From the IMG/VR virus record IMGVR_UViG_3300044568_000742, positions 1 through 44,273 of that record: a stretch of 44,273 nucleotides of DNA; one strand, given 5' to 3'. Source of the DNA: a virus. The notes below the pieces were generated by a model. The model worked only from the letters and a program-made list of their open reading frames with translations, had not been told where the DNA came from and ran no database searches. The position numbers and the translations under genes are program-made. This document shows positions 5,472-24,600 of the stretch, one piece after another. Each line of letters starts with the position of its first letter. Positions within the stretch are counted from its first letter, which is position 1.

Positions 5472-5474
5472 CAA

Positions 5475-5702: not shown

Positions 5703-5711
5703 TATAAATGT

Positions 5712-5725
5712 GATATAATCAGCAT
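5712..5725 (+). promoter_or_regulatory. Extended -10 promoter, leaderless type
   Basis: TGATATAAT (hexamer 5714-5719), only 6 bases before the ATG at 5726, with no ribosome binding site. Confidence 0.6.
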
Positions 5726-6172: not shown

Positions 6173-6185
6173 CTAAGGAGATAAA

Positions 6186-7967: not shown

Positions 7968-7986
7968 TTAAGAAAAGAGGCTAGAA

Positions 7987-8460: not shown

Positions 8461-8466
8461 TTATCT

Positions 8467-8500
8467 GATATAATAGATAAAGGTCTGGGAGGACAAAAAT
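8467..8500 (+). promoter_or_regulatory. Extended -10 promoter plus Shine-Dalgarno
   Basis: TGATATAAT (hexamer 8469-8474), then GGGAGG at about 8488, and the ATG at 8501. It starts the second large fibre gene. Confidence 0.55.
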
Positions 8501-10573
8501 ATGGCAACAAGAATGCAACAGCGTAGGGGTACTGCAGCACAGTGGATCTCTACTAACAGTGGCAACGGTCCTATCCTAAACGCAGGAGAAATCGGGTACG
8601 AAACCGATACAAACAAATTTAAAATTGGTGATGGTACAAATCACTGGCTAAACCTTGACTACTTTATTGATGCTAATTCAACAGCAAATCCATCATTTGG
8701 TTCAAGCATTACATTTGAAGGTGCAACTGCAAATAATTTTGAAACTACGGTTTCGGTAACTGATCCAACAGATGATCGCACTATTACTTTGCCAGATGCT
8801 ACAGGAACAGTAGTTCTTGCCGATGCCAGCGGTAACGTAACAGTATCAGGAGACTTAACAGTATCAGGAACAACCACTATTATTAATAGTACAGTTCTTG
8901 AAGTTCAAACTGAAGTTAAGTTTGAAGGCGCTACAGCAAATGGATTTGAGACAAGTCTTAAGGTTGTAGATCCAACAGCAGACAGAGACATAACATTTCC
9001 AGATGCTACTGGAACAGTTGCCTTACTTGATGCTACTCAAACACTATCTAATAAGACAATTAATTTAACTTCAAATACATTAAACACTACTCTTGCTCAA
9101 TTAAATACAGCGGTATCTGATGCCGATGTTGCTTCACTTGCTGGATCAGAAACCCTTACTAATAAAACTTTAACATCTCCAAAAATTAACGAAGATGTTA
9201 TTTTATCAGCAACAGCCACAGAGCTAAATGTTCTTGATGGGATTACTTCATCTACAGCTGAGCTAAATATTCTTGATGGTGTTACAGCAACAGCAGCACA
9301 AATAAATGTTCTTGCATCTTTGACTTCATCTGCAACAGAATTAAACATTCTTGATGGTGTTACAGCTACCACAGCAGAGTTAAATAAGCTTGCTGGAGTT
9401 ACTGCAACTTCAGCTGAAATTAATACTTTAGCTGGACTTACGTCTACCGCTGCAGAATTAAACATTCTTGACGGTGCGCTTCTATCTGTAACTGAACTTA
9501 ACTATGTAGACGGTGTAACTTCATCTATTCAAACACAGTTAAATAATAAGCAAGCAGTAGTCGCTAATGTTTCAGATACTGAAATTGGATACCTAGATGG
9601 CGTTACTTCAGCTATTCAAACACAAATAAATGGCAAGCAAGCAACTGTTGCTAACGTATCAGATGTTGAAATTGGATATCTTGATGGTGTTACTTCAAGC
9701 ATTCAAACACAGCTAGATGATAAATCAACTGCTTCTAAGACTGAAACACTTACAAATAAAACTCTTACATCACCAGTAATTAACACACCTACTGGAATTA
9801 CTAAATCTGATGTTGGCCTTGCAAATGTTGATAACACAACAGATGCTAACAAGCCAGTATCAACTGCTGCTCAAACAGCACTTGACCTAAAGGCAAATCT
9901 TGCAAATCCTACATTTACAGGGACAGTAAACGCAGCAGACCTTACTCTTTCTGGAAACTTAACAGTTAACGGAACTACAACAAACCTTAACTCAACTAAC
10001 CTTGTTATTGAAGACAAAAATATTGTTCTTGGAGACACAGGAACCCCTACTGATACCACTGCAGACGGTGGCGGAATTACACTTAAGGGCGCAACTGATA
10101 AAACCTTTAACTGGGTAGATGCAACAGATTCTTGGACTTCTTCAGAGCACATCAACCTTGCTTCAGGAAAAGACCTAAAGGTAAATGGAACTGCAGTTAT
10201 TAGCTCAACTGCTGGTGGATTTATATTTACTGATGGCACACAGACAAAAGAAGGAACTCCTTCTCGTACACCAATTATTCAAAAGACAGACTCTTATACA
10301 CTGTCAGCATTAACTGAAAGAGATTCACTAATTGAAGTTGCAAAAGGATCTGCAGCAACAATTACAATTCCACTAAACTCAGCAGTAGCCTTTCCAGTTG
10401 GAACCTCAATTGATGTCCTTCAAACCTCAACAGGTCAGGTAACAATTGCAGGAGATGCTGGAGTAACAGTAAACTCAACACCAGGATTAAAACTAAGAAC
10501 ACAATGGTCAACTGCAACTCTTTTCAAGAGAGCAACAAACACTTGGGTTGTTTACGGCGATCTAACAGCGTAA
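8501..10573 (+). CDS. Large tail fibre with Mtd-like N-terminal domain
   Basis: A 690-residue protein. Residues ~5-55 (MQQRRGTAAQWIS...LNAGEIGYETDTNKFKIGDG) match the N-terminal domain of major tropism determinant-type fibres. Residues 239-342 are eight 13-residue TAELNILDGVTAT-like repeats. Then come GYLDGVTSAIQTQ repeats, TLTNKTLTSP motifs and an NLTVNGTT...DGGGITLKGATDKTF module shared with the 6186 fibre. The final ~95 residues form the cap shared with the 2307 product. It is probably the main receptor-binding fibre or its shaft. I see no reverse transcriptase or template repeat, so there is no sign of a diversity-generating system. Confidence 0.75.
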   Translation: MATRMQQRRGTAAQWISTNSGNGPILNAGEIGYETDTNKFKIGDGTNHWLNLDYFIDANSTANPSFGSSITFEGATANNFETTVSVTDPTDDRTITLPDATGTVVLADASGNVTVSGDLTVSGTTTIINSTVLEVQTEVKFEGATANGFETSLKVVDPTADRDITFPDATGTVALLDATQTLSNKTINLTSNTLNTTLAQLNTAVSDADVASLAGSETLTNKTLTSPKINEDVILSATATELNVLDGITSSTAELNILDGVTATAAQINVLASLTSSATELNILDGVTATTAELNKLAGVTATSAEINTLAGLTSTAAELNILDGALLSVTELNYVDGVTSSIQTQLNNKQAVVANVSDTEIGYLDGVTSAIQTQINGKQATVANVSDVEIGYLDGVTSSIQTQLDDKSTASKTETLTNKTLTSPVINTPTGITKSDVGLANVDNTTDANKPVSTAAQTALDLKANLANPTFTGTVNAADLTLSGNLTVNGTTTNLNSTNLVIEDKNIVLGDTGTPTDTTADGGGITLKGATDKTFNWVDATDSWTSSEHINLASGKDLKVNGTAVISSTAGGFIFTDGTQTKEGTPSRTPIIQKTDSYTLSALTERDSLIEVAKGSAATITIPLNSAVAFPVGTSIDVLQTSTGQVTIAGDAGVTVNSTPGLKLRTQWSTATLFKRATNTWVVYGDLTA
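9215..9526 (+). repeat. Eight 39-base units encoding a 13-residue repeat
   Basis: In-frame, gap-free units of the type TAELNILDGVTAT (eight copies; copies 3, 5 and 6 diverge at the LDG positions). A helical or beta-solenoid shaft element within the fibre at 8501. Confidence 0.85.
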
Positions 10574-10587
10574 TAAGGGGAATATAA

Positions 10588-11547
10588 ATGGCTAAGAAGA
10601 CGGGTAAACGTTCATCTGCATCAAATGACTTTTTAGAGCCATTAGCGCCAACAAGCGTAACTGCAACAAACGTAGGAACAGGCAGAGCGTTTAACAATGG
10701 CGCAGCCACAGTTACATTTTCTTTGCCTGCGCTATCCCCTGCTGCTACATCATTTACTGTAACCTCGTCTCCTGGCGGATATACTGGAACTGGGTCATCT
10801 TCTCCAATTACAGTCACAGGTTTGCAATCTAACACGGCCTACACGTTTACTGCAACAGCGACTAATGCTGCTGGAACATCTGCAGCCTCATCTGCTTCAA
10901 GTTCAATTACAGCTACAACAGTTCCTGCAACCATGTCTGCCCCAACACCTACTGCTGGTGTTAATCAAAACTCTATTGCCTTCTCAGCCCCCGCAACTGG
11001 TGGTAGCGCAATTACTGGGTTTACTGTAACAGGATCTGACGGTACTTCTGGAACAGGTGCTACTTCTCCAATTCTTATTAATGATACCGCTGGAACAGCT
11101 CAAACTTATACAGTCACAGCAACTAATGCTAATGGTACAAGCGTTGCTTCTGCTGCGTCTGGATCAGTTACTACATTATCTCCATTCTTTCCTCCTTTCT
11201 TTCCCCCATTCTTTCCGTTCTTCCCACCTTTCTTCCCACCGTTTTTTCCTTTCTTCCCGTTCTTCCCACCGTTTTTCCCACCATTCTTCCCGTTCTTCCC
11301 ACCATTCTTCCCTCCATTCTTCCCACCTTTCTTCCCGTTCTTCCCACCTTTCTTCCCGTTCTTCCCACCGTTCTTCCCACCATTCTTCCCACCATTCTTC
11401 CCAAGCTTCTCAAGTTGTTCAACAGCTGGTAACTATTGTGGAGCCGACGCAGGTGGTGCCCCATGCTGTGGAGGAGCAGGCTCATGTGATTTCTTTTCTT
11501 GTTTTGGAATAACAGGTTATGCTTGCGGTGGCAATAATTTCTGTTAA
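10588..11547 (+). CDS. FN3-like protein with long Phe/Pro tract and Cys-rich cap
   Basis: A 319-residue protein. Residues ~16-105 and ~108-198 are two FN3-like domains (SPAATSFTVTSSPGGYTGTG and GLQSNTAYTFTATATNAAG motifs). Residues 200-272 consist only of Phe and Pro in FFPP/FFP units. Residues 273-319 contain eight Cys (277, 284, 293, 294, 300, 305, 313 and the C-terminal 319) among Gly/Ala/Ser. The C-C-CC-C-C order resembles disulfide-knotted mini-proteins. The leading KKTGKRSSAS is basic. I see no signal peptide, so it is more likely a virion component than a secreted protein. Function is unknown; a host-surface binding or membrane-active tip is possible. Confidence 0.6.
   Translation: MAKKTGKRSSASNDFLEPLAPTSVTATNVGTGRAFNNGAATVTFSLPALSPAATSFTVTSSPGGYTGTGSSSPITVTGLQSNTAYTFTATATNAAGTSAASSASSSITATTVPATMSAPTPTAGVNQNSIAFSAPATGGSAITGFTVTGSDGTSGTGATSPILINDTAGTAQTYTVTATNANGTSVASAASGSVTTLSPFFPPFFPPFFPFFPPFFPPFFPFFPFFPPFFPPFFPFFPPFFPPFFPPFFPFFPPFFPFFPPFFPPFFPPFFPSFSSCSTAGNYCGADAGGAPCCGGAGSCDFFSCFGITGYACGGNNFC
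11185..11403 (+). repeat. Long FFPP/FFP-encoding tandem repeat
   Basis: 73 codons, all Phe (TTC or TTT) or Pro, in mixed 12-base FFPP and 9-base FFP units. It is a longer homologue of the tract at 3401-3493. Unit order is irregular, consistent with repeated unequal recombination. Confidence 0.9.
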
Positions 11548-11549
11548 AA

Positions 11550-11578
11550 TTGTTAAAAAGTAATAACTATGATATAGT
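11550..11578 (+). promoter_or_regulatory. Promoter of the small-gene pair at 11608
   Basis: TTGTTA (11550-11555), 17-base spacer, TATAGT (11573-11578). A GGAG lies before the ATG at 11608. Confidence 0.5.
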
Positions 11579-11607
11579 TAATACATTAAATAGAATATGG
11601 AGTTGAT

Positions 11608-11940
11608 ATGTTAATAACTGAAGGACTTGTAAAAAAGGGTAAAGTAATAGCTTTTATTTCTGATGGCATTGTAGAATATGTATTACATTCTGTACCACCT
11701 TTGCCAGAAATTCTTGCTCAAGGATACACTTTTGTAGATAATACACAAGACTACCCAGACTTACCTTTAGGTAAGTTTAAAATTGAATTAACTAGCACAG
11801 AAGGCATAGTTTTGCCAATTTTATCAGATGAAGCTACTTATTCTGTTTTAAAAAGCAATCTTTTGGCAGTAGAAGTTCCAGAAGGATTAGAAGTTAGAAT
11901 GGGTTGGAAATACCAAGATTCTGTCTTCTCTCAAGATTAA
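11608..11940 (+). CDS. Unknown 110-residue protein
   Basis: I do not recognise the family. The protein is acidic and strand-rich, with a hydrophobic opening (LVKKGKVIAFISDGIVEYVLH) and a Pro-rich turn, no Cys and no membrane segment. It is preceded by a promoter and GGAG. The next gene begins 2 bases after its stop, so the two are co-transcribed at the head of the oxygenase region. It may be a small structural or accessory factor. Confidence 0.55.
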   Translation: MLITEGLVKKGKVIAFISDGIVEYVLHSVPPLPEILAQGYTFVDNTQDYPDLPLGKFKIELTSTEGIVLPILSDEATYSVLKSNLLAVEVPEGLEVRMGWKYQDSVFSQD

Positions 11941-11942
11941 AC

Positions 11943-12203
11943 ATGTCTGAAAAAACTCCTTGGGAAATATATAAAGAAAAAAACAAAGATATGGTTGAAC
12001 ACCTATCTAAAACTGTAAAACCTTGGGATATGATTAATCCTAATGCTGAAAGAGCAGATGAATCTTTATCAAATAAAAGGTATGATATTTGTAAATCATG
12101 CCCAGAGTTAATTAAGTTAACTAAACAATGTAAAAAATGTGGTTGTTTTATGGCAGCTAAAACTAAACTTCTTAGCGCTACTTGTCCTTTAGATAAGTGG
12201 TAG
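11943..12203 (+). CDS. Small six-Cys zinc-binding-like phage protein (DUF6171-like)
   Basis: 86 residues from the ATG at 11943. The C-terminal half has Cys at 50, 53, 63, 66, 68 and 81 in the pattern CxxC...CxxCGC...C, ending CPLDKW. This arrangement (ICKSCPELIKLTKQCKKCGC) is, from memory, that of the DUF6171-like proteins found in many T4-like and environmental phages. Metal binding, probably zinc, is likely; the molecular role is unknown. The N-terminal half is charged and helical (TPWEIYKEKNKDMVEHL). It lies just upstream of the oxygenase operon. Confidence 0.65.
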   Translation: MSEKTPWEIYKEKNKDMVEHLSKTVKPWDMINPNAERADESLSNKRYDICKSCPELIKLTKQCKKCGCFMAAKTKLLSATCPLDKW

Positions 12204-12216
12204 CACTAGCCTTATT

Positions 12217-12246
12217 TTGCTTTAAATAGCTTTTTCATGCTATAAT
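12217..12246 (+). promoter_or_regulatory. Strong promoter of the oxygenase operon
   Basis: TTGCTT (12217-12222), 18-base spacer, TATAAT (12241-12246), the same -35 and spacing as the lysozyme promoter. A GATGGGGA ribosome-binding stretch follows before the ATG at 12276. Confidence 0.7.
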
Positions 12247-12275
12247 AAATTATAACCTTAAAAGATGGGGATCTT

Positions 12276-12986
12276 ATGGATATTTATGATGAAAATGAAA
12301 ATCATTGGTTTACAAAAGACAGGTCTGAAACAGTTTCAGGTAGAGTTGAAAGATTAATGCCTCAAATCAATATTTCTATTAGTAATCCAGGATTAGGACT
12401 AAACATTTATCATAATGTTTTTTCTAAAGATGATTCAGAAAGATATATTAATACGCTTGAGCACAATCTTTCAGGAGATAAAAAATATAAGTGGTCAGAA
12501 GCTAAAGTTACAAACTCTGATGCCCCAATTAAAAAAGCAAGAGATTGTGTAGACTTTAAATATAAGCAAGAAAATCTTGGGCCAAGAGATGAATCTAATC
12601 AAGACTTAATTGATCTTCATGAAGAGATTTACCAAAAGCTAAAAATGTGTGTAGACGACTATGCTCATTATTGGGGAATTAATGTTACATATTACGAAGC
12701 ATTTAACTTTGTAAAGTATGAGGGTGAAGGAACTCACTTTAATATTCATGCTGATCATGGCCCTGCTTATAATTGTACAGTCTCTGCTGTTATCTATATT
12801 AATGATGATTATGAAGGCGGAGAGATTAAGTTTCCAAGATTAGATAATTTTGTTCATACTCCAAAAGTTGGAGATATAGCTATATTCCCTTCAAACTATA
12901 TTTATGAACATGCTTCTTTGCCAATGAAAACAGGAACAAAATATTGTGTTGTTATTATGACAGACATAAACGAGCTGAGCCATTAA
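12276..12986 (+). CDS. 2OG-Fe(II) dioxygenase 1, prolyl-4-hydroxylase type
   Basis: 236 residues. The double-stranded beta-helix core spans ~130-236. The iron ligands are His158 and Asp160 (HAD) and His212; Lys222, ten residues after the distal His, should bind the 2-oxoglutarate carboxylate as in P4H enzymes. The signature INDDYEGGEIKF is at ~175-186. Its closest relative here is the gene at 13767 (shared EAFNF.KY...H..H.DHG...NCTVS). It is the first gene of the operon and overlaps the next by TAATG. It should hydroxylate a peptide side chain or small molecule using O2. The substrate is unknown; the family's usual substrates include proline in proteins. Confidence 0.85.
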   Translation: MDIYDENENHWFTKDRSETVSGRVERLMPQINISISNPGLGLNIYHNVFSKDDSERYINTLEHNLSGDKKYKWSEAKVTNSDAPIKKARDCVDFKYKQENLGPRDESNQDLIDLHEEIYQKLKMCVDDYAHYWGINVTYYEAFNFVKYEGEGTHFNIHADHGPAYNCTVSAVIYINDDYEGGEIKFPRLDNFVHTPKVGDIAIFPSNYIYEHASLPMKTGTKYCVVIMTDINELSH

Positions 12987-13756
12987 TGAATAAGTTGGCA
13001 ATCTTTAGATCTTTTAGGCCTTGGCTAAATAAGGATAGTGTTTCTGTTCCAGCACCAACACAGAATGTTATTCCTCAATGGTATAAGGATGCAGACAGAT
13101 TTGCAAAAAATCCAATGAACAATGAATATTATAATGCACCAAAAGAAACTTGCCCTTTTCCAAAAGACGGTACAGTAGATGACTATGGAAAAATTCCTAC
13201 ATGGAAAGCATGTCCTGCAATCATGGATGCATTTTCAACTGGATATGTTTTTAAAACTCCTTGCGATTTAATATTTTCTAAAAACGTACAAGGAGTTATT
13301 GGTGTAAAGATTGAAGATAGTAGATATCAAGATTTCTGTACTCAAAGACCACCGATGCCACAGTTTGAGCATCCAAAAGGATTCTATGAGCACCATTTTG
13401 CTTGGTCTTCTGATTGGGGGCTAGAGTTACCAGAAGGATATAGTGCTTTGTTTATGACACCAATGAATAGATTTGATCTGCCATTTTTAAACACAACAGG
13501 AATTGTTGACTCAGATAAGGTTCATTTGCTTGGAAGCTTTCCATTCTTTATTGCAGAAGGTTGGGAAGGAACAATTCTAGCAGGCACTCCATACCTACAA
13601 GTCTTACCATTTAAAAGAGAAAACTGGAAAAGTGAAGTAGAGATATTAGGACAGGCTGAGATTTATGATAAAATGTTTAACAACATGAAGTTTTATAGAC
13701 AGCCTGATGGCGGAGTATATAAAAATAAAGTTTGGTCAAGAAGAGAATACAAATAA
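12986..13756 (+). CDS. DUF6065-like beta-sandwich protein, copy 1
   Basis: 256 residues from the ATG overlapping the upstream stop; an earlier in-frame codon at 12944 lies inside the previous gene. The N-terminus has NVIPQWYKDADRF, a motif common in phage proteins of unknown function. The second half has GYSALFMTPMNRFDLPF, an AEGWEGTILAGTPYLQVLPF strand pair and a helical tail. The GTP.L..LP strand and the preceding domain layout resemble the gene at 14423, which I relate to DUF6065, so I infer a distant homologue with a cupin-like barrel. Function unknown. It sits directly between two oxygenases. Confidence 0.55.
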   Translation: MNKLAIFRSFRPWLNKDSVSVPAPTQNVIPQWYKDADRFAKNPMNNEYYNAPKETCPFPKDGTVDDYGKIPTWKACPAIMDAFSTGYVFKTPCDLIFSKNVQGVIGVKIEDSRYQDFCTQRPPMPQFEHPKGFYEHHFAWSSDWGLELPEGYSALFMTPMNRFDLPFLNTTGIVDSDKVHLLGSFPFFIAEGWEGTILAGTPYLQVLPFKRENWKSEVEILGQAEIYDKMFNNMKFYRQPDGGVYKNKVWSRREYK

Positions 13757-13766
13757 GGAGAATAGA

Positions 13767-14423
13767 ATGGAAACATGGACAGAAAAAATAGACCTTGGTA
13801 ATGGAATCTTTTGTTACAAGGGTGTAATTAAAAAAGAAATTGATGTAATAAAAAGACTTGAAGATAATCTTAAGCCAGAAGGAGATACCACTGGGTACAG
13901 CTGGCAACCTGCGTATGTAGGATACAAACAACTAATGCCAGACTATAGAGATTGTAATGATTTTAAGTTTAAGAAAACAGATATTGAAAATGATAAAAGT
14001 CAAGTCAGTCTAAACCTTCAATCACTTTGGCAAGATCTTTATGATGTAAAATTACCAGCAGTAGAAGATTATTGCAGAATGTACAATATTCATAATTTGA
14101 AATATTGGGAAGCTTTTAATTTTATTAAATATGGTCAAGGTCAACACTTTATGGAACATCACGATCATGGGTTTTCTTATAATTGTACTGTTTCTTTAGT
14201 TTCATATGTTAATGATGACTATGAGGGCGGAGAACTTTTCTTTAGACTACAGAACCTAAAAGTCAAAGCAGAGGCTGGGGATTTGTTTATTTTCCCATCA
14301 AACTTTATGTATCCACATCAAGCCATGCCAGTAACTTCTGGAACTAAATATTCTATTGTAACAATGCTTGATTACAGTAAAAAGTTTCACACTCCAGAAA
14401 TGTATAGTGCAGAGGCAGACTAA
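13767..14423 (+). CDS. 2OG-Fe(II) dioxygenase 2, prolyl-4-hydroxylase type
   Basis: 218 residues from the ATG at 13767, with a good AAGGAG 7-12 bases upstream; an upstream in-frame codon at 13707 would overlap the previous gene. The iron ligands are His131, Asp133 and His184, and Lys194 is the 2OG-binding residue. VNDDYEGGELFF at ~148-159 is the conserved core strand. It shares more with oxygenase 1 than with the others (EAFNFIKYG...H.DHGFSYNCTVS), so the two are probably a duplication. The N-terminal ~100 residues differ between the copies, which suggests different substrates. Confidence 0.85.
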   Translation: METWTEKIDLGNGIFCYKGVIKKEIDVIKRLEDNLKPEGDTTGYSWQPAYVGYKQLMPDYRDCNDFKFKKTDIENDKSQVSLNLQSLWQDLYDVKLPAVEDYCRMYNIHNLKYWEAFNFIKYGQGQHFMEHHDHGFSYNCTVSLVSYVNDDYEGGELFFRLQNLKVKAEAGDLFIFPSNFMYPHQAMPVTSGTKYSIVTMLDYSKKFHTPEMYSAEAD

Positions 14424-15139
14424 TGTTTAATATCTCAGTTGAAAAAACACAGGGGGCTTTGTTTGATATTCAGCCCATGTCAATTAAAAGAGACTGGATG
14501 GATGTAACATCAGAAGGCCATGCTTATAGATGTTTTCCAGTAACCCAATCAAACGTAATTGGCTGGAGTCTTTCTTGTGTAGAAGATATTGAGTTTATTT
14601 GGGATGGAGTTAATGATCAAACTCCAGATCGTGTTGAAATATTCAGCCCATCGGGAGCATATTCTGGAAGAGGTCAATCTTCTATAAGTTTAAATACGGG
14701 TTTAGTTTTTAGAACAGACAAAGATGTAAGTATTTTTACTATTAATCCAGTAAATTATTTTAGCAATGAGTTTGAAACAATGTCATCATTAATGAGCACA
14801 TCTTTTTATGACAATCCTCTGCCTTTAGCTATTAAAGCAAAAGTAGCAAACAAAAGAGTGGTTATCAAAGCTGGAACCCCAGTTGCTACAATAATTCCTA
14901 TATCTTTGTCAAATTTAAACGGTACAAATATTGAAATTGTTAAATACCAAGACAATGATAGAACAAGATTAGAAGCCAATATGTCCTATGGAAATGCTGC
15001 ACAAGAAATAAATAAAACTGGGAAATGGACAGACTGGTATAGAGATGCGGTAAATGAAAACAAAGAATCTCAAGGTTCACATGAGGTAAAAACATTAAAA
15101 CTAAGCGTAACAGACAATACGAAGGGTGATATAATATAA
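14423..15139 (+). CDS. DUF6065-like beta-sandwich protein, copy 2
   Basis: 238 residues, beginning at the TAATG overlap. Residues ~19-70 (SIKRDWMDVT, YRCFPV, VIGWSL, IEFIWDG) match the pattern I remember for DUF6065 proteins, whose members open RDWMD...YRC.P. and contain GW. The later KAGTPVATIIPI strand also fits. DUF6065 has no established biochemistry; a cupin-like fold is likely and a metal-binding role is possible but not shown. The gene follows oxygenase 2 as copy 1 follows oxygenase 1. The promoter of the next gene lies in its last codons. Confidence 0.6.
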   Translation: MFNISVEKTQGALFDIQPMSIKRDWMDVTSEGHAYRCFPVTQSNVIGWSLSCVEDIEFIWDGVNDQTPDRVEIFSPSGAYSGRGQSSISLNTGLVFRTDKDVSIFTINPVNYFSNEFETMSSLMSTSFYDNPLPLAIKAKVANKRVVIKAGTPVATIIPISLSNLNGTNIEIVKYQDNDRTRLEANMSYGNAAQEINKTGKWTDWYRDAVNENKESQGSHEVKTLKLSVTDNTKGDII

Positions 15140-15141
15140 AT
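15128..15141 (+). promoter_or_regulatory. Internal leaderless promoter inside the operon
   Basis: TGATATAAT (hexamer 15130-15135) lies in the last codons of the previous gene, and the ATG at 15142 is 6 bases on, with no Shine-Dalgarno. Oxygenases 3-7 could therefore be expressed apart from 1-2. Confidence 0.6.
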
Positions 15142-15822
15142 ATGGAACAAAATAAAGACTCATATACAGTAGTTAAAAGAACACCGTCTATAACTCCATC
15201 TGGGTGGTTTGGGGATAGCAAAGACATGATTGTTGAGCTAGAAAACTTTATGACGCAGGAAGAGATAGAGTTTTTAGAAAAAGCTGCCAAATCTTTAACA
15301 ATTTGGGATGTAACCGAAAGCCATGTAAATGAAAATGGAACTGTTACCTATGATTCAGATTATTGGAAGGATAGAGTTGCAACTCAGCCAACCTTAGACA
15401 AGAATGATCCTAAAATATCACCAATAGTTGCTGGCCTATTTCAAAGATTAAAACCAATTGTAGAAGAGTTTTATAAAGTAGAAGTTCACCCAACTGGAAC
15501 AACCATTGTTAAGTGGCTTCCTGGACAATTTCAAAAACCTCATGCAGATAAAGAATTACATGAAGGCCCAGATGCTGGAACTCCAAACGATTTTCCCAAC
15601 TATGATCTTTCTAGTTTGTTTTATTTAAATGACGACTACGAAGGTGGAGAACTATACTTCCCACTACAAGGTGTGCAGTTTAAACCTAAAAAAGGTGCTG
15701 CTTACTTTTTCCCAGGGGATAAAAATTATATTCATGGAGTTACTGAGATTAAGAGTGGCATAAGATTTACATGTCCATTTTTTTGGGAGATTAAAAAACA
15801 TACGGGGGAGAGACAACCATGA
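15142..15822 (+). CDS. 2OG-Fe(II) dioxygenase 3
   Basis: 226 residues. The iron ligands are His134 and Asp136 (KPHADKELHEG) and His198 (YIHGV). The 2OG residue is Arg208 (SGIRFT), so this paralogue uses Arg where 1 and 2 use Lys. LNDDYEGGELYFP at ~162-174 is the core strand. A longer lid (residues ~137-155, EGPDAGTPNDFPNYD) between HxD and the core strand suggests a different substrate pocket. Its stop overlaps the next start by ATGA. It may be expressed from its own leaderless promoter. Confidence 0.85.
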   Translation: MEQNKDSYTVVKRTPSITPSGWFGDSKDMIVELENFMTQEEIEFLEKAAKSLTIWDVTESHVNENGTVTYDSDYWKDRVATQPTLDKNDPKISPIVAGLFQRLKPIVEEFYKVEVHPTGTTIVKWLPGQFQKPHADKELHEGPDAGTPNDFPNYDLSSLFYLNDDYEGGELYFPLQGVQFKPKKGAAYFFPGDKNYIHGVTEIKSGIRFTCPFFWEIKKHTGERQP

Positions 15823-16685
15823 CAGAGCCAGCGCTTAACCCAATAGAAATATATCCACAAATATTTGTTTATAAAAATATGTTTAAGGATATAACAAAGA
15901 CGCACTCCGAGTTAAAAAATTCTTCAGGTCACGAAGACGAACTGCTAAATGAGTGGACAAAATGGTCTGACTTTGGAGAGTATTTAAACCCTACATTTAA
16001 AGATCATCCACACGGATTTAGCACAGAGTATTTGCAGCAGATAGAAACTAAAACAGATAAACAGGAAGTTCAAAAACTTGCACTTCTAGAATTATTTAAT
16101 AACTTTTATGCAGTAACAAAAGACTACGCTATTAAAAATAATATAGATCTTGATCAAGATAAAGAGATAACAAATCATTATGGAGAACAGGTAAAAGAGT
16201 GGAACAGGTCTGGACCATCTATAGCAAGATATAGAACAGACATTGTAGACCCAATAGCCATGACATATCATTCTGACTATATACGCCAACCAATTGTTAG
16301 CCCAGGGTACAAGTTTGTAATAACTGCTCTAGTGTATTTTAATGATGACTATGATGGTGGAGAGATTGACTTTATTGTTGATGGAGAAGCCTATAAGTAT
16401 AAGCCAGAAGCAGGAGACTTTTTAGTATTTCCATCAGGTCATCCAGACATACTAACAAAGAACGGCTCAGTCTATATTCACGGAGTTATGCCAGCAAAAA
16501 AGACAAGTAAATACCTATCCAGAATGTATTGGATGAAGTATTCTCTTGGAGATGATGAATGGTTTGAAAAAGAGAAAGAATTTGGAAAAGATGTTTGGGA
16601 ATCAATGCAGCCAGATATAATGCAAAAGTTTAGAGATGAACATCCCAATAAAATTAATGCAGACAAAGAAAGAAGGATAAAATGA
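15819..16685 (+). CDS. 2OG-Fe(II) dioxygenase 4
   Basis: 288 residues, the longest of the set. The iron ligands are His151 and Asp153 (YHSDYIRQP) and His221 (YIHGV), with Lys231 as the 2OG residue. FNDDYDGGEIDF at ~174-185 is the core strand. The C-terminal ~50 residues (RMYWMKYSLGDDEWFEKEKEF...) form a charged helical extension not present in the others. The N-terminal ~110 residues are helical with several acidic stretches. It is coupled to both neighbours by ATGA overlaps. Confidence 0.85.
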   Translation: MTEPALNPIEIYPQIFVYKNMFKDITKTHSELKNSSGHEDELLNEWTKWSDFGEYLNPTFKDHPHGFSTEYLQQIETKTDKQEVQKLALLELFNNFYAVTKDYAIKNNIDLDQDKEITNHYGEQVKEWNRSGPSIARYRTDIVDPIAMTYHSDYIRQPIVSPGYKFVITALVYFNDDYDGGEIDFIVDGEAYKYKPEAGDFLVFPSGHPDILTKNGSVYIHGVMPAKKTSKYLSRMYWMKYSLGDDEWFEKEKEFGKDVWESMQPDIMQKFRDEHPNKINADKERRIK

Positions 16686-17437
16686 ATCTAAACAATAAAA
16701 AAAGAATTACAAAGGACATAGTTATTTATGAAAACTTTGTTACTGATGAAGAGTGCCAAAAAATGGTTCAAGCACTTGATGCTCAAGCAGAGGGTGGAAA
16801 GTTATCATGGATGCCTATCTCATTTTATGAGTCATACTCTTCTGTACTTCCACAAGACAATGACCAAGAAGTTCTTGACGTTGGACTATCTCCAACTATT
16901 TTTTCAGATATTGAAAAGATGATGCCAGAAGCAATTGCTTCCGTACACGACTTAGATCCAAAGGTAATATCAAAAATTGGATACCATACACAAAAGTGGG
17001 AGCCAGGAGCATACGCAAGAATTCACTCTGACAATACAGATGAGCATGGAAAATCTGGGGCATTTACGAGAAGTAGGTATGCAGGCTTTTTATACCTTAA
17101 TGACGACTTTGAGGGAGGACTGCTTAAGTTTCCAGCACAAGACGTAGAGATTCAACCAAAGGTTGGAATGCTTGCCGTATTTGACGGAGGATTTAACAAC
17201 ATGCACGAAGTATCCCTTATTACAAGTGGAGTAAGATATACCATCGGATCTTTCTGGGATGACAGAGAAGAATCAGATTATCCGCAAGAACTAAGAGATG
17301 CCTGGGCTGTAGAAATGAAAGAGACTAGAGCCAATCAAGAAATTGAAAGAGCAGAGTGGCAAGAGCTTTTAAAGCAAGGTTGGAAGTTGGATGCAAATGG
17401 AAATAAGTACAAGGTAGAAGATATTCTAAATGATTGA
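16682..17437 (+). CDS. 2OG-Fe(II) dioxygenase 5
   Basis: 251 residues. The iron ligands are His115 and Asp117 (RIHSDNTDEHG) and His175 (NMHEV), with Arg185 as the 2OG residue. LNDDFEGGLLKFP at ~139-151 is the core strand. A KWEPGAYARIHSD segment before the iron site is typical of P4H-family enzymes. A charged helical tail (residues ~195-250) follows the core. It overlaps its neighbours by 4 and 8 bases. Confidence 0.85.
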   Translation: MNLNNKKRITKDIVIYENFVTDEECQKMVQALDAQAEGGKLSWMPISFYESYSSVLPQDNDQEVLDVGLSPTIFSDIEKMMPEAIASVHDLDPKVISKIGYHTQKWEPGAYARIHSDNTDEHGKSGAFTRSRYAGFLYLNDDFEGGLLKFPAQDVEIQPKVGMLAVFDGGFNNMHEVSLITSGVRYTIGSFWDDREESDYPQELRDAWAVEMKETRANQEIERAEWQELLKQGWKLDANGNKYKVEDILND

Positions 17438-18089
17438 GTCCTTAAAAAAACAGTTGACAGATGCTGGCTATGTAGTTGAAGATATTACCTCAAAACTATT
17501 TTCTGTTGAAAACTTTTTATCACAAGATCAAATAGATACTTTTTGGGATATTATAAATAGTACATCTCAAGAAGACTGGGAAGTAGAATATCACGCAAAC
17601 TTAAAAAACTTTTGCATGCAAAAATTTGGTAGAGATGATGTAGATAATCTGGTTGCTGAAGGTAAGTTTGAAGTTACTCAAAATTGGAAAGATAAAAATT
17701 TTAATATATTACACCATGAGATATACAGACCATTATATGATGGTTTAAACTCAATGGTAGTAAAATCTGATCCAGAGTTAATTTTAAGTGGTTTTGCAAC
17801 AATTCAAAGAATGCAAGCGGGGGTAGAATTAAAATCTCACACAGATCAAAGAACAGATCCATCTATAAAATATGCTACAATTGTATATATTAATGATGAC
17901 TATGTAGATGGTGAGTTATTTTTCCCAAACCTTGATATCCAGTTAAGGCCTAAACCAGGAACTATGTTATTTTTTCCAGGCGATGAAAAGTATGAACATG
18001 GAGTCAAGCATGTAGGAGATGGACCAGTAAGATATGTTCTTGTTGGATTCATTAAAGAAAAAGATCACTATCAAAAGAATAGGTACTAG
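17430..18089 (+). CDS. 2OG-Fe(II) dioxygenase 6
   Basis: 219 residues. The iron ligands are His137 and Asp139 (SHTDQRTDP) and His190 (YEHGV). The 2OG residue is probably Arg201, eleven rather than ten residues after the distal His because of an insertion (GDGPVRY). INDDYVDGELFFP at ~154-166 is the core strand, with Val-Asp replacing Glu-Gly of the other copies. It starts within the end of the upstream gene (8-base overlap), so it is translationally coupled. Confidence 0.83.
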   Translation: MIESLKKQLTDAGYVVEDITSKLFSVENFLSQDQIDTFWDIINSTSQEDWEVEYHANLKNFCMQKFGRDDVDNLVAEGKFEVTQNWKDKNFNILHHEIYRPLYDGLNSMVVKSDPELILSGFATIQRMQAGVELKSHTDQRTDPSIKYATIVYINDDYVDGELFFPNLDIQLRPKPGTMLFFPGDEKYEHGVKHVGDGPVRYVLVGFIKEKDHYQKNRY

Positions 18090-18099
18090 GAGGCACCAA

Positions 18100-18729
18100 A
18101 TGGATAGAGAAATACTTGAAGAAAAGGTTTACTATTACACAAATGTAATTGAAGACCCAAAAAGACTTGTTGAAGCAATTGAGAATGACAATCAAGATCC
18201 TTGGGGCGAATGGATGGCGTGTAGTGGACAAGAGTATGTCTATGGAACAGATAAAAGTATTTCCCAGGCAGACCCATCAGATGAAAAGAATACTTATATT
18301 TATTCCACACTACAAAAGGCTTTTGACGATGTAGCAAGAGACTATGCAGCAGCCCAAGGTATTACAGAAGAGCCTAAACTATTTCCAATGTATCCAATTA
18401 AAAAATATCAAGCTGGTACATTTATGGGAGCACACTTTGATCAACAAGAGGGAGACGAAAGACTAAAAGTTTCTTTTGTTATGTACCTAAATGATGATTA
18501 TGAAGGTGGGGAAATATCTTTTACTATTGCTTCTCCAGGAGGAATATTAACAGAGGCAAGACCTCCAGCAGATTTTGCAGAAGCCGAAAAAGGATTAAAC
18601 TATACATTTGCTATAAAGCCAAAAGCAGGAAGCATCATTGTATTCCCACCATCACCTCCATATCACCATACAGCACACCTAGTTAAGAGTGGCTTTAAGA
18701 TTATGGTTCCACAACATTGGATTCATTAA
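18100..18729 (+). CDS. 2OG-Fe(II) dioxygenase 7
   Basis: 209 residues from the ATG at 18100, preceded by a good CTAGGAGG; an in-frame codon at 18034 would run through the previous gene. The iron ligands are His112 and Asp114 (GAHFDQQ) and His190, with Lys200 as the 2OG residue (KSGFKIMV). LNDDYEGGEISF at ~130-141 is the core strand. A ~30-residue insertion (ASPGGILTEARPPADFAEAEKG) after the core strand gives it a distinct active-site lid. It ends in HWIH and overlaps the SDR reading frame. Confidence 0.84.
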   Translation: MDREILEEKVYYYTNVIEDPKRLVEAIENDNQDPWGEWMACSGQEYVYGTDKSISQADPSDEKNTYIYSTLQKAFDDVARDYAAAQGITEEPKLFPMYPIKKYQAGTFMGAHFDQQEGDERLKVSFVMYLNDDYEGGEISFTIASPGGILTEARPPADFAEAEKGLNYTFAIKPKAGSIIVFPPSPPYHHTAHLVKSGFKIMVPQHWIH

Positions 18730-19399
18730 TATTAAAACAGCTATAGTAACTGGAGCAAGCAAGGGTGTAGGGTTAGCAACAGTTAAACGTTTGTCTGAAA
18801 ATGGATACAAAGTTATTGCTGTTTCAAGAAATCTTTCAAAAGTGTCTAAGATTATATCTGATAACGTTGAGGTATATAACCTAGACATAACAGACTCTAA
18901 AGCAATAGAAATATTCTTTGAAAAATACAAAGATATTACTTTAGATCTTCTAGTTAATAATGCTGGAGGAGGATCAGGTCCAACTCATATTATTAATGAA
19001 ACTCCAGAAAATTTTAGAAAAGCCTATGACATAAACGTTACTGGCCCTATGTATTTATCTCAACTATTTGTTCCTTGTATGGAGAAATCACAATCTCCAA
19101 CTATTATATTTATTACTTCTTTTGGTGGCAAGGTCCCATATCGTGGTGGAGGAAATTATACAAATGCTAAAAGAGGTGAACGTGGCTTAATTGATACAAT
19201 GAGACTTGAGTTTCCTCAATTTGGTATTAAAATTACAGAAATCTGTCCAGCAACTATTGATACCCAAGAACAAAAACGGGAGCATGCATTAACTGCAGAA
19301 GATTTAGCAGAAGCTATTTACTGGGTAGGATCATTACCAAGTCATGTTAATATAAATGAAATTGAAATTTGTCATATCAACAGTAGCAAGTATAATTAG
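18689..19399 (+). CDS. Short-chain dehydrogenase/reductase
   Basis: About 220-236 residues. It has a Rossmann motif TAIVTGASKGVGLA near the N-terminus, NNAGG (residue ~91-95), a Ser in ITSFGG, and the catalytic Tyr-Thr-Asn-Ala-Lys (YxxxK) pair, so it should be an active NAD(P)-dependent oxidoreductase of the classical SDR type. No ATG fits: the frame opens at a GTG at 18689 inside the previous gene, or at an ATT just after its stop at 18731. The true start is uncertain; a start near 18725-18734 would give the typical SDR N-terminus. The substrate is unknown. It ends the oxygenase operon, so it may oxidise a hydroxylated product or act on sugars. Confidence 0.75.
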   Translation: MALRLWFHNIGFINIKTAIVTGASKGVGLATVKRLSENGYKVIAVSRNLSKVSKIISDNVEVYNLDITDSKAIEIFFEKYKDITLDLLVNNAGGGSGPTHIINETPENFRKAYDINVTGPMYLSQLFVPCMEKSQSPTIIFITSFGGKVPYRGGGNYTNAKRGERGLIDTMRLEFPQFGIKITEICPATIDTQEQKREHALTAEDLAEAIYWVGSLPSHVNINEIEICHINSSKYN

Positions 19400-19408
19400 T
19401 TTTTTATT

Positions 19409-19426
19409 TATAACACTTTTGTTATA
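19409..19426. terminator. Possible weak terminator or hairpin after the SDR gene
   Basis: TATAACA (19409-19415), loop CTTT, TGTTATA (19420-19426): a perfect 7-bp but AT-only stem following TTTTTT at 19400-19405. It is weak for a terminator and could be incidental. Confidence 0.3.
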
Positions 19427-19494
19427 TAAAAGTACTAACTATAAACAATAACTTTATACATTAAAACTGAGCGTGGAATTGTTTTTAATTCTAT

Positions 19495-19502
19495 GCTATA
19501 CT
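19495..19502 (+). promoter_or_regulatory. Extended -10 promoter of the reductase gene
   Basis: TGCTATACT (hexamer 19497-19502). It is followed by a ~52-base leader with AAAGGTGG before the ATG at 19562, a longer leader than elsewhere here. It is too short to hold a cobalamin riboswitch. Confidence 0.5.
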
Positions 19503-19561
19503 TAGGACTACTTCCGATTCTACGAAGTACTCAACCAATATTAGAAAGGTGGCATACTTAA

Positions 19562-21592
19562 ATGTCAGATGTTTTTTCGTTTCGCTTATCAGAGGATTTT
19601 GTAAATAAATATAGTAATACTCCAGCACCGTTTGGATTTTCAGATGCGGGTAGCAACTCTTTAGGAGAAATTACTTTTATCAGAACATATTCTCGTGTTA
19701 AAGAAGATGGAACAAAAGAACGTTGGCACGAAGTATGTCGCCGTGTAATTGAGGGTATGTACTCAGTTCAAAAGAATCATGCTAAAGATAATAGACTACC
19801 TTGGAATGATAATAAATCACAGAAGTCAGCACAAGAAGCTTTCCAAAGAATGTTTGAATTAAAGTGGACACCTCCAGGCAGAGGTCTCTGGGCTTTCGGA
19901 ACCCCAATGACTATGGAGAAAAGAAACTCAGCTTCATTACAAAATTGTGCAATGGTTTCTACCCGTGACATTGATCGTAATGATCCAGGTGCCCTTTTTG
20001 CTTGGGTAATGGATGCTTTAATGTTAGGAATTGGAGTAGGGTTTGATACCTTGGGACAAGACAAACAAATGCCTATCTACGCTCCTACAGAGCCAGTTTC
20101 TACCTATGAGATTCCTGATACTCGTGAAGGATGGGTTGAGTCTGTCCGTCTTTTAATTAATTCATTTTTACGTCAAAATCAATCTATTCAAGAATTTAAG
20201 TATGACCTTATCCGTCCTCTAGGATCAGCCATTAAAGGCTTTGGTGGGGTCGCTAGCGGTCCAGAACCATTAATTCAACTACACATACGCATACGAAATG
20301 TCATTGGCTCTAGAGCAGGAGAAGTACTAGATAGTCGTGCAATTGTTGACATTGTTAATCTTATTGGAACATGTGTCGTTTCTGGAAATGTTAGACGTTC
20401 TGCTACTTTGGCTTTAGGAACACCAGAAGACAATGGTTTTATTAATTTAAAGAATCCAGAAGTATTTCCTGAAAGAAATTCATTTGATCCAGAAAAACCA
20501 GGCTGGGCATGGATGTCTAATAATTCTATTTCTGCTACTGTTGGCACTAAATATGAAGACTATGTTGATTTAATTGCTGATAATGGTGAGCCAGGATTTA
20601 TTTGGTTAGATGTTGCGAGAGACTATGGTCGTTTAGCAGATGCACCAGACTATAAGGATTCCCGTATTATGGGATTCAATCCTTGTGCGGAGCAGCCATT
20701 GGAGTCATACGAACTTTGTACACTTGTAGAAGTGCACTTAAATCGTCATGAATCCAAGGAGGACTTCCTAAAGACATTAAAATTTGCGTATCTTTATGGA
20801 AAGACTGTTACCCTTATGCCAACACATTGGCAGCAAACAAACGGTATCATGCAAAGAAACAGACGTATTGGAACATCCCTAACTGGAATTGCATCTTTTG
20901 CAGATACCTATGGATTACCAACAACTCGTGAATGGATGGATGAAGGGTATCAAAAGATTCGTTACTATGATCACAAATACTCAGAATGGCTATGCGTTAG
21001 AGAGTCTGTTCGTGTAACAACAGTTAAGCCATCAGGATCTGTATCACTGCTATCTGGAGCAACTCCAGGAGTTCACTGGGGCCCAGGAGGAGAGTTTTAT
21101 TTAAGATCTATTCGTTTTGGAAACACAGATCCTATGCTTTATTTGTTTAAAGCAGCGGGATATAAAATTGAAGATGATGTAGTATCAGCCAATACATCTG
21201 TAGTATATTTTCCAGTAGCATCTGGTCACAAGAGATCAGAAAAAGAAGTTAGCCTATTTGAAAAGATTGGTTTAGCAGCTACTGCTCAGAAGTACTGGTC
21301 AGATAATGGCGTTTCCGTTACTCTTTCTTTTGATAAAGAAACAGAAAAGAAGTTTGTTGCACCAGCCCTAAATATGTACGAAGGACAGCTAAAGGCAGTT
21401 TCTTTCCTTCCAATGGGAAATAAGACTTATCCACAGCAACCGTACACAGAGATAACAAGAGAAGAATATAACTCTTATGTGGGTACAATTGGTAAGATTG
21501 ACTGGTCTGCTATCTATGATGGAGTTGAAAATCTTGAGGCAGAAGGAGAGTCTTATTGCTCTACTGATGCTTGTGAGATTAAACTTTATTAA
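19562..21592 (+). CDS. nrdJ: Class II (adenosylcobalamin-dependent) ribonucleoside-triphosphate reductase
   Basis: 676 residues, intact, matching the Lactobacillus leichmannii-type RTPR (~739). Cys129 (NCAMVS) and Cys386 (SYELC) form the active-site redox pair. Cys375 in NPCAE is the thiyl-radical residue with Glu377 next to it. VKPSGSVSLLSGATPG is the substrate phosphate region. The C-terminal C666 and C671 (CxxxxC) regenerate the disulfide. It reduces ribonucleoside triphosphates to dNTPs for phage DNA replication, in the cytoplasm and without an oxygen requirement. No intein or frameshift is visible. It is unusual that it lies between an oxygenase operon and head genes rather than with replication genes. 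Confidence 0.92.
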   Translation: MSDVFSFRLSEDFVNKYSNTPAPFGFSDAGSNSLGEITFIRTYSRVKEDGTKERWHEVCRRVIEGMYSVQKNHAKDNRLPWNDNKSQKSAQEAFQRMFELKWTPPGRGLWAFGTPMTMEKRNSASLQNCAMVSTRDIDRNDPGALFAWVMDALMLGIGVGFDTLGQDKQMPIYAPTEPVSTYEIPDTREGWVESVRLLINSFLRQNQSIQEFKYDLIRPLGSAIKGFGGVASGPEPLIQLHIRIRNVIGSRAGEVLDSRAIVDIVNLIGTCVVSGNVRRSATLALGTPEDNGFINLKNPEVFPERNSFDPEKPGWAWMSNNSISATVGTKYEDYVDLIADNGEPGFIWLDVARDYGRLADAPDYKDSRIMGFNPCAEQPLESYELCTLVEVHLNRHESKEDFLKTLKFAYLYGKTVTLMPTHWQQTNGIMQRNRRIGTSLTGIASFADTYGLPTTREWMDEGYQKIRYYDHKYSEWLCVRESVRVTTVKPSGSVSLLSGATPGVHWGPGGEFYLRSIRFGNTDPMLYLFKAAGYKIEDDVVSANTSVVYFPVASGHKRSEKEVSLFEKIGLAATAQKYWSDNGVSVTLSFDKETEKKFVAPALNMYEGQLKAVSFLPMGNKTYPQQPYTEITREEYNSYVGTIGKIDWSAIYDGVENLEAEGESYCSTDACEIKLY

Positions 21593-21626: not shown

Positions 21627-24600
21627 ATGTCTAACCCATCTAATTTATATGCAGAAAAAATTTACTCAGAGCACCCTCTGGTACTTTGGGCACTAGACGA
21701 TCAAGCAGATTATGTAAGTTTAATTACTGAGGCAAAAAGAAATATAGTATCTCTTTGGGATGACACAGAATCCTGTACTTTAAGTTCTGGGTCAGCACCT
21801 GCAGAAGAACCTTTTCCTGATAGTTTTACAAGCCTAGTGTCTTGCAATGTTCCAGCAGGGGCATCTGGGGAATCAATTATATTAAGTCCAGATATTGATA
21901 ATTTCCAAAACCTTAATACAACATTAGGAACATTTTCTATTGGTTCTTATTTTTATATTGATAGTTTATATATTAACTCTATTGCTATTGGTTATGAATA
22001 TACAGATACAACTACTTTAGAGGTAGTTCAAAAGCTTAAAACTTTTGCAGATCCAGCCTACCAGTCATGGTCTTTTATGTCAGAAACTTTTGAAATCCCT
22101 GAAGAAAATACAAACTTTAAAATAATTATAAAAATATTAAAGTCTTCAGGCGGAGCAACATCTGCTGACTATAAAGTTTATTTTAATGGAATAACTACAG
22201 GACAATGGTCTGAAGAATTTCATAAAGAATCTTTAGGAGTTACACCAGCATCTTTTCCAGCAACAATTGCAATTGATACAACAGATACCGTAATCCCAGC
22301 TGCAGCCTATGGAGTGTCTAGTAATACCGCATACTATTTGGTAAAGAATAATGCTCTTCTTGCAAAAAATACAAGTATTCCATTAGTATTTGGTGCTTCT
22401 GGGTTAACTAAAATTATTCCAAACACATCAAACAAACCTTCATTAATATTTCCAGGTCAAGGATTTTTAAACAAATCTGGGCAGCATAAAGAATACACTG
22501 TAGAGTTTTGGGCAAGAATAATTGCAGACTCTCCAGACCCAAAAAGAATATTTGGACCAATTGCTTCTACAGATGGACTCTATGTAGATTCAGGCTTTTT
22601 AACTTTAGTTATTGGTGGTCAGTCAAATTCTCATTTTGTTGGTGAGTGGTTTAGACCAATGCTTATCCATATTAGATTAATTAAGAATTCTGTGACGGTA
22701 TTGGTAAATGGAGAACAGGTAATAGAAATTGCTATTGATACCACATCTTTAGCATTACCAGACTTACTAAATGCACAGCTAAAAAGCCAAGACTGGCTTG
22801 GATTTTATGCATACGAGAATGTAAGTTTGATTGAAGTAGACTGTTTTGCTATATACTCTTACCAAGTTTCTGTAACTGTTGCTAAACGTAGATGGGTTTA
22901 TGGTCAAGCCGTATCTTCAGCACAATCTATCAACTCATCCTATGGTGGAACTTCTGCTTTTATAGACTATTCATTTTCAAACTATACCGCAAACTATAAC
23001 TATCCAAGCTTTGCACAGTGGCAACAGGGAAGCTTTGATAATCTAGAAACAACATCTTTAGAGTTGACAACACCATCTTATAGTTTGCCTAACATATTTT
23101 TAGATACTAAAAGTCTAGATGATCTATATACTGATTGTAAAGCAATACAGACAGATCAAGAATCTGGAGCATTTCCACACAAATTTTTAACATTTAGACC
23201 AAACTCAACTTGGAGTGGACTAGGAACATATCTAAACTTTCCAAAATTAAATATTTTAAATGATAAGGTTAAGTCTATTTATGGGGTATTTGGCAGCAAT
23301 GTACTATTGCTTGATGCAGAATACTACAACACTTCTCCAGCAGACTATATTGAAGCAGGGTATTATAATACTACCAGCTGGACAGAATTTTTTGATGCTG
23401 GAAATCCAGGAACTAATCAAACATTAATTAAAATTTATAATACGCTAACAGGTGATTTTTTTATTGTTAGACTTAATGAAACCGTTATTGAGTATGTTTT
23501 AAATTATAATAAAGAAGAACAAATAGTGTATACAACAGAAAACATTGAGTCTGAACAACTTTTTGCAGTTGGAATTAATATTGATGATTTGTCTAATGTT
23601 TTTGGAGGCAATGTTTCAGCATTCTTTGGTAATGTAAATGGACTAAAAGTCTATGTTGCAGGAGACGAAGAAACATCTAACTCATTCTTTGGAAAAATTT
23701 ACTCATTAGGATTTACAACAGAGCTTAATCATAAATCAATATCAAACTATTTTAATGAATACGGTGTTGTTAAATTTGATGATTTATCTGCCCCTGGAGT
23801 AACAGAAGAAACTAATGCTATTGCTCTTATAAATCATTTAGCCAGCTATACCCTGTTGCCAACAGAAGCATACAATGAATTCTTTCTTGATATTGGAGTA
23901 TCTGGACACTGGCAAGACTACCTTCCCCTTTCTTATTTTGCTAAATATGTTAATAACGCACAAGGTGCTTCTTACTATGATTTAGATTTTTTACAGTTTA
24001 ACCTTGGGTATCCATCGCCATCTAAACTACTAGAAAAAGAAACTAACTCTTCTTGGACATATGAAGATTTAAAGGAAGAATATTCAGCACCTATTCAGCA
24101 AACCTATTATCAAATAGATAATAGCCTTATTACTGGATGGAATGACTATGAAGATTTATCTCAAAAGGCATTAAAGTACTACGAATATGATACCTCAGAA
24201 TCTTTTGTTAAAAGCTATGTTACTTTTCAATATATAGCAGATGGAGCAAATGCTCTTGATGAAACCTTTAATATTAATGTTCCAGCCAAAGAAGGATCAA
24301 TTATTGATATTGATAACTACCCAGACTGGGCTGCTAGTAAATTTGAAATTGTAGATAATACAATTATTTATCCTAGCAAGTCTGTAGATTTCAATGACTT
24401 AGCAGTTGTATATTCTATTGAGTTTAATGTGCGTGGAATTATTAATAGACCAATTAAAATTAAAGAATTAGAGATAGCTTCGCAAGCATTGAGTGATAAT
24501 GCCTTTAACTCGGTAGGTACTAGGTTTGGAGTTGATCTAGTGCCATACAAAAAATCTGGAATTTATTTTGACTATAAGTCAAAAAATCCTTTTAGTATTT

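Follow-up and report, generated by a model that had tools for sequence, protein, structure and literature searches.

Why should one bacteriophage keep seven different 2-oxoglutarate- and Fe(II)-dependent (2OG-Fe(II)) oxygenase genes in one place? The question is posed by IMG/VR virus record IMGVR_UViG_3300044568_000742, a linear record of 44,273 bases that was analysed in its entirety (the window), in which positions 12276–18729 hold seven intact, divergent genes of this kind, g1–g7. Their products comprise 209–288 residues with the starts chosen here, those of g2 and g7 being placed by inference at the next suitable ATG; the listed open reading frames extend upstream into the gene before, beginning at 13707 and 18034. 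An earlier annotation made from the letters alone (the original prediction) had drawn attention to the oxygenases. Just upstream of the array, outside the coordinates considered there, lies the gene of a fibre-like protein with a stalk built of Phe and Pro, and this neighbour may supply the answer: judging from the sequences compared here, and with a probability of roughly 0.55, the array would be a conserved enzyme cassette that hydroxylates prolines of the Phe/Pro stalk.

The family assignment is secure, in that all seven products pass the curated PF13640 cut-off in a profile hidden Markov model search (E 5.5e-08 to 1.3e-13), as the original prediction had anticipated. The HxD motif, the distal His and a Lys or Arg ten residues later (Arg at +11 in g6) are likewise present in all seven when the alignment is read by eye, the program's own alignment having put the first His of g1 and g2 in the wrong place. 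The core strand NDDYEGGE is shared as proposed and exact in g1, g2, g3 and g7; it is varied in three products (NDDYDGGE in g4, NDDFEGGL in g5 and NDDYVDGE in g6) rather than degenerate in two. Among the distinct complete oxygenase frames of related loci fetched for comparison, HxD...H...K/R is kept in 784 of 791, as against 223 of 791 shuffled frames and 116 of 1255 other frames. The median ratio of nonsynonymous to synonymous substitution rates (dN/dS) against orthologues runs from 0.02 to 0.15 (g1 0.05, g2 0.04, g3 0.02, g4 0.15, g5 0.09, g6 0.10, g7 0.08; 15 comparisons per gene, with 13 for g6, five for g4 and four of the 15 for g2 saturated). Purifying selection on all seven is strong, and the statement that none is decayed and all are maintained holds good.

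What kind of oxygenase these are is suggested by their closest solved relatives. A joint profile of g1–g7 matched bacterial prolyl 4-hydroxylase (P4H) 5hv0 from B. anthracis best (E 4.5e-13), followed by prolyl 3-hydroxylase 1, chlorella-virus P4H, PiuC, PHD2 and Tet-like dioxygenases (the last at E 6.3e-04), and the best solved matches of g1, g2, g3, g5 and g6 taken singly are prolyl hydroxylases (E 1.2e-06 to 0.015). Among the oxygenases, structure prediction was confined to g2, where a 40-sequence alignment gave a confident model (predicted local distance difference test score, pLDDT, 90.6; predicted template modelling score 0.88) of a P4H-like double-stranded beta-helix. The model superimposes on algal P4H 3gze with (Ser-Pro)5 (Z 20.0, root-mean-square deviation 2.1 over 173 residues) and, in a tie, on a Trichoplax prolyl hydroxylase (Z 19.4), then on PHD2 and P4H-EF-Tu (Z 18–19), vCPH (17.4) and the PKHD-type 3dkq (17.3); g2 also matches chain 6ax6 (E 9e-04), which we take to be mimivirus L230. 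A prolyl-hydroxylase-like enzyme is the best guess for g2 from its model, with the proviso that a shared fold by itself shows no function, and for g1, g3, g5 and g6 from their sequences. The known P4Hs (algal type I 3gze/2jig, B. anthracis 5hv0, Pseudomonas 4iw3 and chlorella virus vCPH 5c5t) resemble g1–g7 in fold, in 2OG and Fe ligands and in supplying the best sequence and structure matches, and they modify peptides. They differ in that one or a few enzymes usually serve a substrate, that the substrates are collagen-like, (Ser-Pro)n or single sites and not FFPP, and that identity in the structural comparisons is only 13–21 per cent.

The candidate substrate begins with about 200 residues that include an fn3 domain, continues as 74 residues of Phe and Pro only (11182–11403) in the repeat (FFP[P])n, and finishes in a Cys-rich end. 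The stalk is not collagen-like, there being no Gly-X-Y and no collagen profile match. In relatives the stalk is not of constant length, and it finishes in a Cys-rich, a Hint/intein-like or a short end. The units between FF pairs in the tracts examined are PP (1307) or P (791), all others together amounting to 46, and across array loci the aromatic residue and the tip vary (FFPP, YFPP, HFPP, FFAPP) while Pro is constant. The repeat as a coding accident was considered and is ruled out: its reading frame is that of an fn3 domain on which selection acts (dN/dS 0.12 for the N-terminal part), and it is written with two Phe and four Pro codons. In cellular genomes the FFPP pattern was found in 28 stretches, 25 of them with one match each, and a tblastn search of cultured phages with the repeat masked did not find the fn3 part. 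The anchor, stalk and variable tip of the protein and the tail-fibre genes close by suggest that it is a fibre or adhesin, and it would then presumably be part of the virion. The Pro-rich stalk tips of four loci (L044, L053, L056 and L060) have weak matches to Hint/intein-splicing domains, all below cut-off, and may be self-processing.

The stalk and the oxygenases occur together in a search that took no account of the enzymes. A DNA pattern for FFPPFFPPFF, applied with no oxygenase criterion, returned at least 119 stretches, counted as 115 loci, and was set beside 120 control stretches with a tail-protein repeat pattern. An oxygenase frame was present in 85 of the 115 FFPP stretches listed (at least three frames in 52; 3.0 per 10 kb) and in two of the 120 controls (0.03 per 10 kb). 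Where a stalk gene shared its stretch with an oxygenase (82 cases), the nearest oxygenase lay downstream in 79 and on the same strand in 67, and within 1.5 kb with both properties in 55. The 74 FFPP loci newly listed include 23 with no oxygenase in the stretch, 14 of which have PF13640 matches elsewhere in the record (13 above cut-off); of the control records, 41 were searched whole, with a match in two. These record-level counts are lower bounds, given that a six-frame PF13640 search of the window found six places and missed g4. Because the FFPP loci are related, a Fisher value for the association is not a probability.

The kind of stalk also covaries with the array. Three queries gathered homologues of the fn3 protein; 114 distinct ones had 7 kb or more of sequence downstream, and 108 of these were tabulated. 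Pro-rich stalks were followed within 8 kb by at least three oxygenases in 81 cases and by fewer in seven (n = 88), vs none and 20 for other stalks (n = 20), namely the FG kinds (FGFTPFG, FGAFGA, VFGFSPFG) and one of FSPF/FAPF. The six rows left out had a short domain slice (L083, L030, L120, L084, L545, L529): L083 and L030 are Pro-rich with six and seven oxygenases, L120 is a second copy in an array locus, and L545 is a Gly-rich gene whose record contains six oxygenases. As for the Pro-rich rows with no array nearby (L532, L469, L533, L544, L453, L493, L049), the array lies further off in the locus in L453 and L049, and whole-record PF13640 matches number six in L532, seven in L469, six in L533, two in L544 and none in the 8.3 kb of L493. 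A gene-by-gene comparison with 21 hand-picked FG loci (L529 included) gives the same picture. The tail-fibre gene is present in all 21 and the ribonucleotide reductase (83–88 per cent identity) follows in 11; g1, g4, g5, g6, g7 and D2, one of two non-oxygenase genes (D1 and D2) within the array, have no match in any. The best matches there are g3-like in 11 loci and g2-like in seven (29–45 per cent), with D1-like proteins in 13 (24–32 per cent). From stalk gene to reductase the distance is 842–4974 bases in 11 FG loci vs 5354–13269 in 45 Pro-rich loci. In place of the different substrates or partners that the original prediction suggested, and that may nevertheless exist, this covariation favours a single candidate substrate for the whole set, namely the neighbour's Pro-rich stalk.

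With tens to more than 100 residues of nothing but Phe and Pro, such a stalk would be expected to be very hydrophobic. If g1–g7 are peptidyl, mostly prolyl, hydroxylases that act on the stalk before or during assembly, a hydroxyl on each Pro could make it more soluble and a stiffer, extended rod, and might provide sites for attachment of sugars. Prolyl hydroxylases do likewise for collagen and for the extensins of plants and algae. Each paralogue may have a context of its own, such as the first Pro of PP or the second, FFP or FFPP, or the ends of the stalk. More tentatively, and at short of even odds, this would be a dedicated multi-enzyme phage pathway producing a hydroxyproline-rich, extensin-like (Phe-Phe-Pro-Pro)n stalk by means of at least seven specialised hydroxylases and DUF6065 helpers, and such maturation, not host metabolism, would be one main reason why some phages have many 2OG oxygenases.

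Several observations weigh against stalk hydroxylation. Its support is association and covariation in related, uncultured and fragmentary genomes that are not independent: single linkage at 70 per cent identity places 100 of the 115 FFPP loci in one group, and only four of the 11 FFPP groups have an oxygenase in the stretch, so that the link is weak outside the main group. The tail-protein control was chosen without matching of habitat, and nine of the 23 FFPP records searched whole (two of them longer than 30 kb) gave no PF13640 match. Supported branches yield three independent pairs, which are concordant in nearly all pairings (sign test p 0.25), and stalk changes are too few for independent contrasts. 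The omitted row L084 has three oxygenases and was scored as lacking a stalk, yet its C-terminal part reads PPPFPPPF. Whole FG records (50–116 kb) carry 0–6 PF13640 genes at other places, so the family also serves other purposes in FG phages. Finally, g4 and g7 found no prolyl-hydroxylase match among solved structures.

The alternative that fares best, possible if on the doubtful side, is that the enzymes have several substrates, some acting on the stalk and others on the variable tip, on a collagen-like protein encoded at 549–1286 or on host proteins. The seven separate clades into which the oxygenases fall would suit such a division, as would the presence in the window of that Gly-X-Y protein with Gly-Pro-Pro and two exploratory links from a series of 12 tests that used related loci and no correction: the tip is Cys-rich in 25 of 59 loci with g6 and two of 18 without it (p 0.02), and the median number of stalk repeats is 20.5 in loci with g4 vs 13 without (p 0.002). 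It is harder to reconcile with g1, g2, g3, g5 and D2, which are found in 73–75 of 75 Pro-rich loci whatever the tip. It is unlikely that the stretch from stalk gene to reductase is merely a linked block, swapped as one by recombination, whose enzymes act elsewhere (on the host wall, glycans or small molecules). Such a block would account for a stalk gene adjoining the array, for backbone genes conserved on either side, for the few changes of stalk kind (at least five on the fn3 tree) and for D2 covarying as well (75 of 75 Pro-rich loci vs 0 of 21 FG loci). Yet the fn3 N-terminal part is common to both stalk kinds, which places the break inside the stalk gene, the loci with a second FFPP copy elsewhere (L453, L049) also hold an array, and Pro is kept while the other stalk letters and the tips vary. 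Host-directed metabolism as proposed for cyanophages, whether 2-oxoglutarate drawdown or nucleic-acid repair or modification (PMC3037559), is improbable even with the weak, sub-cut-off match of g3 to Tet_JBP (E 2.7e-04) and the joint-profile Tet-like match (E 6.3e-04), as it leaves unexplained why the array should adjoin a Pro-rich stalk and covary with it, and a single enzyme would be enough to consume 2OG.

Other phages have the array too. A viral collection was searched with the g1–g7 alignment and with the fn3 protein (at least 80 loci each), and pieces of the window were added. The resulting set of at least 155 loci includes overlaps and fragments, with some contigs present twice and many short loci cut, and holds 896 oxygenase frames: seven in 37 loci, six in 31, five in 19 and eight or more in 27 (the eleven pieces of L054 being inflated by broken frames), so that 114 of 155 loci fetched by similarity have at least five. 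In the 77 loci of at least 12 kb with at least four oxygenases, g2, g3, g5 and D2 are present in 77, g1 and D1 in 74, g7 in 69, g6 in 58 and g4 in 52, and most of the 40 loci listed have the window's gene order, some with extra copies or with D1 and D2 exchanged. A tree was built from six cyanophage rows and the 60 clusters, out of 148, that have at least two members, with identical or closest rows standing for the window's genes; g1–g7 fall there into separate clades, and every one of these clades draws on many loci. Recent tandem duplication is ruled out by these clades and by the 19–42 per cent identity of g1 to the other oxygenases. One 45.5 kb contig (L087) has seven oxygenases 100 per cent identical to the window's and is probably the same virus.

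Seven oxygenases are therefore less extraordinary than had been held. A run of seven was called unusual; within the window's own phage group arrays are common and largely share one order, though they are not identical, and cultured cyanophages have been reported with ten and 24. Nor is the run unbroken, the seven genes standing as described with D1 and D2 interleaved, which leaves g3–g7 as the uninterrupted part. Adjacent array genes overlap by at most 8 bases or sit at most 10 bases apart. The single operon that this suggests rests on the overlaps, since promoters and terminators at 10400–19700 are no commoner than in shuffles (35 vs 34.9 and 5 vs 5.6).

Many 2OG-Fe(II) oxygenase genes per phage have already been published. 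In published accounts, cyanophage S-SCSM1 has 24 with function unassigned, S-CREM1 has ten (PMC9964418), cyanophages have up to five each with proposed roles in 2OG signalling and DNA repair (PMC3037559), and PiuC-like signatures occur in most viral copies of one studied set (PMC13184970). In our searches S-SCSM1 gave 13 PF13640 matches, nine above cut-off, and three other cyanophages picked from the matches gave seven, eight and 11. These T4-like cyanophages resemble the window in having many divergent PF13640 genes per phage and differ in that the genes are spread over the genome, with no conserved seven-gene order known within this analysis. In S-SCSM1, four and three annotated copies flank two tail-fibre genes, of which the short one (L423:17880–19142) has a long Arg/Gln/Pro/Phe-rich stretch; this cluster may be a further instance of the idea. 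The nearest viral parallel is mimivirus, whose collagen is modified by a lysyl hydroxylase (as cited in PMC8968730). There too a virus encodes a repetitive structural protein and an oxygenase that modifies it (in the window, a candidate one), with the differences that mimivirus is a giant virus of amoebae and uses Gly-X-Y repeats, lysine and one bifunctional enzyme. No link between stalk and oxygenases was found in the literature as judged by titles and the beginnings of abstracts, subscription papers and preprints lying outside that coverage, and the link appears to be the new part of the finding. Its value is that the natural on/off pattern, in which the array goes with one kind of stalk, singles out a concrete substrate, open to simple assay, for a puzzling set of phage enzymes. 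If it is true, the maturation of a phage fibre would include protein hydroxylation, and the stalk would be a new aromatic-proline fibre material.

Table 1. Positions of the stalk gene and of the genes of the array in the window, with the matches on which each assignment is based.
Feature	Position	Strand	Evidence
fn3-anchored fibre-like protein, candidate substrate	10588–11547	+	fn3 PF00041 32.2 bits (cut-off 25); Phe/Pro tract
g1, 2OG-Fe(II) oxygenase	12276–12986	+	PF13640 41.8 bits; best solved match B. anthracis-type P4H, E 2.5e-05
D1, phrog_7084 / distant DUF6065-like protein	12986–13756	+	phrog_7084 E 4.3e-32; no Pfam match
g2, 2OG-Fe(II) oxygenase	13767–14423	+	PF13640 52.1 bits; model pLDDT 90.6; 3gze Z 20.0
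D2, DUF6065 protein, predicted dUTPase-like fold	14423–15139	+	DUF6065 88.2 bits; model pLDDT 75.2; dUTPases Z at most 11.7
g3, 2OG-Fe(II) oxygenase, most conserved of the seven	15142–15822	+	PF13640 37.3 bits; dN/dS 0.023; P4H E 6.3e-04
g4, 2OG-Fe(II) oxygenase, least conserved of the seven	15819–16685	+	PF13640 34.1 bits; no solved relative (phmmer)
g5, 2OG-Fe(II) oxygenase	16682–17437	+	PF13640 35.3 bits; P4H E 1.2e-06
g6, 2OG-Fe(II) oxygenase	17430–18089	+	PF13640 41.7 bits; P4H E 0.015
g7, 2OG-Fe(II) oxygenase	18100–18729	+	PF13640 41.6 bits; no solved match at E 0.1

The model of D2 resembles dUTPases (Table 1), and the protein has no Pfam dUTPase match. dUTPases are trimers, and it is conceivable from the model that D2 serves as an assembly helper for a trimeric stalk. 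Upstream of the array are tail-fibre-like proteins, and downstream of it follow genes for a short-chain dehydrogenase, a ribonucleotide reductase, portal, protease, head and tape-measure proteins. An actinobacterial host is likely, because the portal's nearest cultured relatives (about 46 per cent) are those of Streptomyces phages with genomes of 120–134 kb. Further on, positions 21627–25367 hold a frame of 1246 residues without a PHROG or Pfam match. Between the stalk gene and the array, positions 11943–12203 encode a small Cys-rich protein with a DUF6171 match that is present in 39 of the 77 loci, and the collagen-like protein near the start of the window could itself be a second substrate of prolyl hydroxylases.

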